From positions 1 through 46,514 of the forward strand of contig PCVP01000005.1 in the NCBI GenBank assembly GCA_002787035.1: a stretch of DNA of 46,514 nucleotides. The letters are read 5' to 3'. Under the pieces are notes generated by a model that was given only the letters and a program-made list of their open reading frames with translations, searched no databases and was not told the origin of the DNA. The DNA comes from Candidatus Peregrinibacteria bacterium CG11_big_fil_rev_8_21_14_0_20_49_14. Its GTDB lineage: Bacteria > Patescibacteriota > Gracilibacteria > Peribacterales > Peribacteraceae. This document shows, piece by piece, positions 19,102-19,255 of this stretch (its first letter is position 1; the number at the start of each line of letters is the position of its first letter). The position numbers and the translations under genes are program-made.

Positions 19102-19127
19102 AAAAAAGCCTCCTGAAGGGAGGCTTT
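19102..19127 (-). terminator. Attenuator terminator before the aspartokinase gene
   Basis: On the minus strand AAAGCCTCC, a 5-nt loop and GGAGGCTTT form a 9-bp stem that runs into a T-run, 22 nt before the aspartokinase ATG. Its 5' arm GCCTCCCTTC can instead pair with GAAGGGCGGC in the end of the leader ORF (9 pairs, one C-U mismatch), which would be the antiterminator. Confidence 0.9.
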
Positions 19128-19148
19128 GAGTTGCTACGTGAATGTGCG

Positions 19149-19220
19149 TTAGCAGCCGCCCTTCCTGTGTAAGGAGGTCTTCTTTGTCTTCAGCATCTTT
19201 GTCGGCTGGCTGGACTGCAT
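19149..19220 (-). CDS. Thr/Lys/Met leader peptide of the aspartokinase attenuator
   Basis: This 23-codon ORF (ATG 19220, TAA 19149) contains P-T-K-M-L-K-T-K-K-T and ends S-L-H-R-K-G-G-C. Thr, Lys and Met are end products of the aspartate pathway that the downstream enzyme opens. The last codons double as the RNA segment GAAGGGCGGC that can pair with the terminator's 5' arm, and CCTT/AAGG within the ORF gives a weak protector hairpin. The ATG lies 7 nt after the -10 box, so the leader should be translated from an essentially leaderless mRNA. It is a trp/thr-type attenuator by structure; regulation is inferred. Confidence 0.75.
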   Translation of the reverse strand: MQSSQPTKMLKTKKTSLHRKGGC

Positions 19221-19227
19221 CGCTAAG

Positions 19228-19255
19228 ATAGTAATGTAATACGGATGAATGTCAA
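19228..19255 (-). promoter_or_regulatory. Promoter of the aspartokinase leader
   Basis: TTGACA (19250-19255), a 16-bp spacer and TACTAT (19228-19233) lie on the minus strand, with the leader ATG 7 nt downstream. The -35 box sits 3 bp left of the stop of the preceding gene (19258). Confidence 0.85.

Follow-up and report, generated by a model that had tools for sequence, protein, structure and literature searches.

In enteric bacteria, the threonine operon thrL-thrABC combines a leader peptide with threonine and isoleucine codons, a choice between terminator and antiterminator, and a bifunctional aspartokinase-homoserine dehydrogenase. The leader peptide peTrpL of Sinorhizobium meliloti is translated from an mRNA beginning at, or close to, the ATG. 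Threonine has been listed among the attenuator-regulated operons, lysine has been named as riboswitch-regulated, and leuA of Actinobacteria carries a pseudoknot LEU element (PMC1262725). Peribacteria have been described as lacking the synthesis of most amino acids, and have been inferred to import amino acids (PMC4736985).

The window (the whole stretch of DNA analysed here, 46,514 nucleotides) carries on its minus strand a candidate attenuator which resembles thrL-thrABC (Rfam RF00506, Thr_leader) in its control-codon leader peptide, its terminator/antiterminator choice and its position before an aspartokinase gene, but which differs in its Thr/Lys codons, its leaderless-type start and the lone aspartokinase that it precedes. 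The locus has no match to RF00506; within 19000-20800 the single match is on the opposite strand and scores 18.3 bits, the cut-off being 55. With peTrpL the locus shares a leaderless leader peptide, the start site here being predicted, whereas peTrpL has Trp codons and belongs to another lineage. As with the L-box (lysine) riboswitch, control by lysine supply would act at the RNA level; in contrast to it, the locus has no Rfam lysine riboswitch match, and lysine would be sensed via codons. To our knowledge, lysine control through codons, rather than through a lysine riboswitch or repressors, has not been described, and our search of the literature on attenuation in the candidate phyla radiation and Peribacteria found no report of it there, nor did searches on lysine codons and on attenuators across phyla yield anything for this lineage. 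Very probably, the mechanism outlined below is classical attenuation, and what is new about it is the lineage, the use of control codons for lysine and a cassette that can be exchanged.

Layout of the locus and predicted leaderless start

The span singled out in a first-pass annotation of the window, 19102-19255, has the -35 box and the end of the T-run as its exact limits, and each of its elements was found in place on the minus strand. The parts of the putative switch and the gene behind it are as follows.

19228-19255, minus strand: promoter of the aspartokinase attenuator, predicted from sequence, with -35 box TTGACA (19255-19250), 16-nt spacer and -10 box TACTAT (19233-19228)
19149-19220, minus strand: leader ORF of 23 codons plus TAA, MQSSQPTKMLKTKKTSLHRKGGC and stop (ATG 19220-19218, stop codon 19151-19149)
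19176-19202, minus strand: control codons 7-15, ACA AAG ATG CTG AAG ACA AAG AAG ACC (Thr/Lys, one Met)
19152-19165, minus strand: region B, GGAAGGGCGGCTGC, the last leader codons and putative 5' strand of the antiterminator
19115-19124, minus strand: region C, GCCTCCCTTC, the 5' arm of the terminator with its loop and, putatively, the 3' strand of the antiterminator
19102-19127, minus strand: intrinsic terminator (hairpin and T-run) separating the leader from the aspartokinase
17431-19080, minus strand (ATG at 19080): divergent aspartokinase of 549 aa, AA_kinase plus ACT-like, the putative regulated gene

The leader reads ATG CAG TCC AGC CAG CCG ACA AAG ATG CTG AAG ACA AAG AAG ACC TCC TTA CAC AGG AAG GGC GGC TGC TAA, and the run P-T-K-M-L-K-T-K-K-T, to which the annotation had drawn attention, corresponds to its residues 6-15. 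Seven nucleotides separate the end of the -10 box from the leader ATG. The terminator, AAAGCCTCC-CTTCA-GGAGGCTTT-TTT, has a folding energy of -13.5 kcal/mol, and the pairing claimed between leader end and terminator arm is present as described, GAAGGGCGGC with GCCTCCCTTC at 9 of 10 positions. The upstream neighbour of the promoter is a 318-aa ORF (19258-20214, minus strand), with TTGACA just past its stop codon. A window-wide scan that was blind to amino-acid composition, and sought a promoter at leaderless distance together with a short ORF and a terminator, returned only this leader and a Leu-coded leader at 20595-20666.

One frame of the window is open from before the leader into the aspartokinase (606 aa), as would be expected if the leader were an N-terminal extension of the enzyme and the hairpin simply terminated the gene upstream. 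This frame, however, has no ATG, GTG or TTG before 19080, most orthologues have a stop codon between the leader and the enzyme, and the hairpin is set apart from the upstream gene by a promoter. On the first two of these grounds the extension was rejected, and the probability of the reading as a whole is close to negligible.

At the 5' end, a TTGAC-type promoter whose -10 box ends 7-10 nt from the ATG occurs in 12 of the 13 aligned loci, and a promoter match of at least 8/12 at leaderless spacing precedes 58 of the 68 leaders of a wider set. Shine-Dalgarno sequences were looked for before the leader ATG in the aligned orthologous loci, and none was found. Transcription is likely to start at the ATG or within a few bases of it, such that the leader mRNA would be leaderless.

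Conservation of the leader codons

Of the 74 genomes in the family (Candidatus Peribacteria), 15 contain this aspartokinase, and 14 of these 15 have a Thr/Lys leader immediately upstream of the gene. The sole exception is G015, in which the aspartokinase sits behind a gene resembling dapA (by eye), and not behind a leader. The leader ORF is open in 13/13 aligned loci, and the layout from stop codon to terminator, whose loss the first-pass annotation had named as a refuting observation, is kept across the orthologous leaders. That annotation had read the composition of the leader as strong support for attenuation. For the single leader of the window the argument is moderately convincing (Thr+Lys in 8 of 22 codons, P = 7e-4), and it is conservation among orthologues that makes it compelling: threonine and lysine account for 92 of 263 codons (35%) in 12 scored orthologous leaders, against 25.4 (10%) expected (P = 7e-29, a value somewhat inflated, as some of these leaders were picked using a Thr/Lys filter). 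Thus the comparison proposed at the outset was borne out, Thr/Lys codons persisting while other codons drift. Each filter-picked leader is also placed at a promoter and an overlapping switch; the scoring covers 12 leaders, the 13th (G059) having been found afterwards.

The closest relative, G002, whose enzyme is 66% identical, has the leader MQLLGHTKTMKTKKTSSYRKGDC, and further orthologous leaders read MQHVASMKKTTKKTSRTGKDGC (G008), MIVSSLPLGTTKKLKKQTKMSRHGGLMEQ (G013) and MRHSSLPSMKKATKKNSTHLEAWLRR (G069). By simple count, 12 of 13 leaders contain a Met codon besides the start. In the aspartokinase leader of G028, MIHCCYTTTKTTKTTSSGGRLSV, threonine has 7 codons and lysine 2, and other leaders contain about as many of the one as of the other. 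This bears on whether a real switch might sense lysine only (or general translation stress), the Thr and Met codons being passengers. Related copies do include Lys-dominated leaders, such as MQLSLLKQKKAKKTSHTGKDSC before a formyltransferase-like gene in the same genome; the aspartokinase leaders, however, keep both amino acids, and the threonine-rich leader of G028 counts against a lysine-only signal, which we consider unlikely.

Terminator, antiterminator and folding

Region B is able to pair with C, the terminator 5' arm, in every aligned locus. The B:C duplex in the window has an energy of -20.1 kcal/mol, compared with -8.6 +/- 2.6 for shuffled leader ends (0/2000 shuffles as good), and cognate B:C pairs are better than all between-species swaps (0/20,000 as good; mean -21.5 vs -16.9 kcal/mol). 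Both sides are replaced in G069 (CTGGAGGCGTGGT with ACCACCCTCCAG), as they are in G013 (GGAGG..GATGGA with TCCATC..CTCC). An intrinsic terminator of -9.5 to -17.5 kcal/mol precedes the structural gene in 13/13 aligned loci. When a ribosome is modelled at the stop codon, the rest of the RNA folds into the terminator in all 13; when it is modelled on the control codons, B is free, and the antiterminator is the best fold before the terminator 3' arm exists in most of the 13.

At equilibrium, the antiterminator is not the favoured fold of the stalled state in every locus, and this counts against attenuation. In the window copy, the energy minimum retains the terminator (-22.8 kcal/mol, vs -20.3 for the antiterminator, a difference of 2.5), and the switch would therefore need to depend on the order of folding during transcription. 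The antiterminator is also weak in G002, at -12.1 kcal/mol. The start and end of the leader can pair, and might form a protector hairpin (region 1:2); in the aspartokinase leaders this pairing gives no covariation signal, with 3118/20,000 swaps as good.

The DNA of region B is highly conserved yet read in different frames in Leu copies and in most Thr/Lys copies, and the RNA, not the peptide, is therefore the conserved unit. Such conservation would suit a metabolite-binding riboswitch or a protein-binding RNA element that controls the aspartokinase, with the short ORF incidental. Against this, Rfam searches at gathering and relaxed thresholds brought no family to its cut-off and nothing credible; the ORF, open in every aligned locus, begins at the promoter and has codons that fit the type of enzyme downstream; and B and C, unlike an aptamer, vary freely provided that their pairing holds. 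Taken with these points, control by a bound ligand or protein appears very improbable.

In all likelihood, the aspartokinase is instead controlled by a ribosome-mediated transcription attenuator composed of Thr/Lys codons, a terminator and the alternative B:C pairing, and the attenuation proposed in the first-pass annotation is upheld, given that the leader is conserved in orthologues and the antiterminator pairing covaries. From these conserved and covarying parts, we infer ribosome stalling, termination and a response to threonine or lysine. The leader would be translated as a leaderless mRNA from a start at or near its ATG. With Thr-tRNA and Lys-tRNA charged, the ribosome would reach the stop codon and cover B, the terminator would form, and transcription would stop. 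If threonine or lysine were short, the ribosome would stall on codons 7-15 and B would stay free; B could then pair with C before the terminator 3' arm is made, and transcription would continue into the aspartokinase gene.

The aspartokinase and its pathway

The 549-aa protein matches PF00696 above cut-off (E 6.7e-12), with ACT models just below theirs, and also matches the aspartokinase of PDB entry 2cdq (E 1.1e-10). The NCBIfam aspartate kinase models fall below their equivalog cut-offs (best 85.9 bits vs a cut-off of 455). A scan of genome contigs for the aspartokinase gave a single record, MFYJ01000009.1, from Candidatus Peribacteria bacterium RIFOXYB1_FULL_54_35, a relative belonging to the same genus. 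The N-terminal motif is KIGGDNAG, compared with the usual KFGGTSV. Possibly, this is a repurposed enzyme.

Although this genome is 98.55% complete, none of its proteins matched PF02774 (asd), PF00701 (dapA) or PF00742 (homoserine dehydrogenase), for which the same searches were positive in 14/14 control genomes; these absences agree with the described gaps in amino-acid synthesis of Peribacteria (PMC4736985). Among the 15 aspartokinase genomes, asd occurs in only four (G015, G063, G018 and G028). Perhaps the aspartokinase serves another purpose, or perhaps the enzymes that come after it are too divergent for the models. As asd, dapA and homoserine dehydrogenase are not visible here, which also counts against attenuation, end-product feedback is not yet to be claimed. 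The proposal that the leader samples products of the aspartate pathway is less secure than the first-pass annotation had supposed, since it assumes that the enzyme serves to make threonine and lysine here.

A shared module with exchangeable control codons

At 20542-20702 on the minus strand, 1.45 kb further upstream, the window contains the switch a second time, here with Leu codons, a point that the first-pass annotation of the aspartokinase leader does not mention. The two copies share the module CCTCCTTACnnnGGAAGGGCGGCTGC, and the stretch GGAAGGGCGGCTGC of region B recurs identically at 20603-20616.

20675-20702, minus strand: predicted promoter of the Leu-type copy, TTGACA-16-TACCAT, 8 nt before the ATG
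20595-20666, minus strand: Leu-type leader ORF, MHSRILSLGLLLLLLTAEGRLRV and stop, with the same module in another frame
20542-20573, minus strand: terminator belonging to the Leu-type copy, whose leader contains GGAAGGGCGGCT, complementary to the 5' side of this terminator
20192-20506, minus strand: 104-aa gene behind the Leu-type switch, with no Pfam or NCBIfam match

The 318-aa gene (19258-20214), which has a CGNCGLCC motif and no Pfam match, also lies behind this copy. Given a Leu-coded switch, induction by leucine shortage would be expected for both the 104-aa and the 318-aa genes.

More generally, Leu leaders and most Thr/Lys leaders differ in the frame in which they read their common module, which shows a route by which an attenuator may be retuned to another amino acid. 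A peptide-level cause was considered for the conserved leader C-terminus (RKGGC / TAEGRLRV), but one and the same DNA serves two frames, and on that ground this cause was rejected.

From 17 aspartokinase and Leu leaders, which alone match it by construction, a covariance model was derived that has matches in 64 of the 74 family genomes at E <= 0.05. Outside the family, only three genomes gave matches when 242 genomes of the class were searched at E <= 0.001. Among 70 matches examined were 38 Leu leaders and 27 Thr/Lys leaders, and further leaders with the same switch are Thr-only, Lys-dominated or Met-rich; as the other attenuators of the genome were found via this model alone, these sets comprise leaders with this type of switch, and a different switch would escape. 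Where the enzyme could be recognised and the leader read, isopropylmalate-synthase-like genes followed Leu leaders in 10/10 cases and aspartokinase-like genes followed Thr/Lys leaders in 11/11, the enzymes being recognised by motif and the isopropylmalate-synthase-like proteins confirmed in three cases by Pfam and in one by NCBIfam. A Leu-codon leader before such genes recalls the leucine attenuators before leuA, but the Leu-type copies match no known leader family at cut-off.

On balance, we favour the view that Peribacteria carry a lineage-wide attenuator cassette, in which one switch module (leader end plus terminator) is joined to control codons that can be exchanged (Leu, Thr/Lys, Lys, Thr or Met) in different frames, which includes lysine sensing by codons, and whose target genes are for the most part not recognised as biosynthetic. 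Gene regulation has been little studied in the candidate phyla radiation, and the switch would provide a regulon of dozens of genes, many without assigned function. Since leader codons tell the expected amino-acid response, they may serve as functional labels for genes in uncultured organisms. An attenuator regulon is nonetheless odd in bacteria inferred to import amino acids (PMC4736985). Ile-rich leaders occur in two of the three class matches beyond the family, a hint that amino-acid attenuators extend further within this group.

Several individual copies deserve mention. The genome of the window has a third copy, L130 (G000:C3:17486-17574, minus strand), in which the Lys-dominated leader MQLSLLKQKKAKKTSHTGKDSC precedes the formyltransferase-like gene (PF00551). 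The Met-rich leader MMMSMMMLSSRGTAACA of L140 (G024:C6:237638-237735, plus strand) has the same switch and lies before a gene for 367 aa that matches nothing in Pfam. The leader of L125 (G035:C89:4012-4113, plus strand) contains eight consecutive Thr codons (CTTTTTTTTFLRKGSC), with the contig end just downstream. In another family of the class, the Ile-rich leader MHMQRVIVIGLIIIPLNQER of L152 (G177:C26:8307-8395, minus strand) and its terminator precede a threonine synthase (TIGR00260, over cut-off). The Ile-rich leader MRSRNTNLIIASLIIISPRRGSFV of L153 (G267:C8:12200-12292, plus strand) precedes a 124-aa gene without assigned function. Lastly, a repeat-like stretch, CCTGAGC..GTCGAAGGG, lies in frame within the Leu leaders L034, L035, L115, L096 and L138 (G002, G001, G045, G014 and G059, respectively), where it lengthens the leader peptides and leaves the switch intact.
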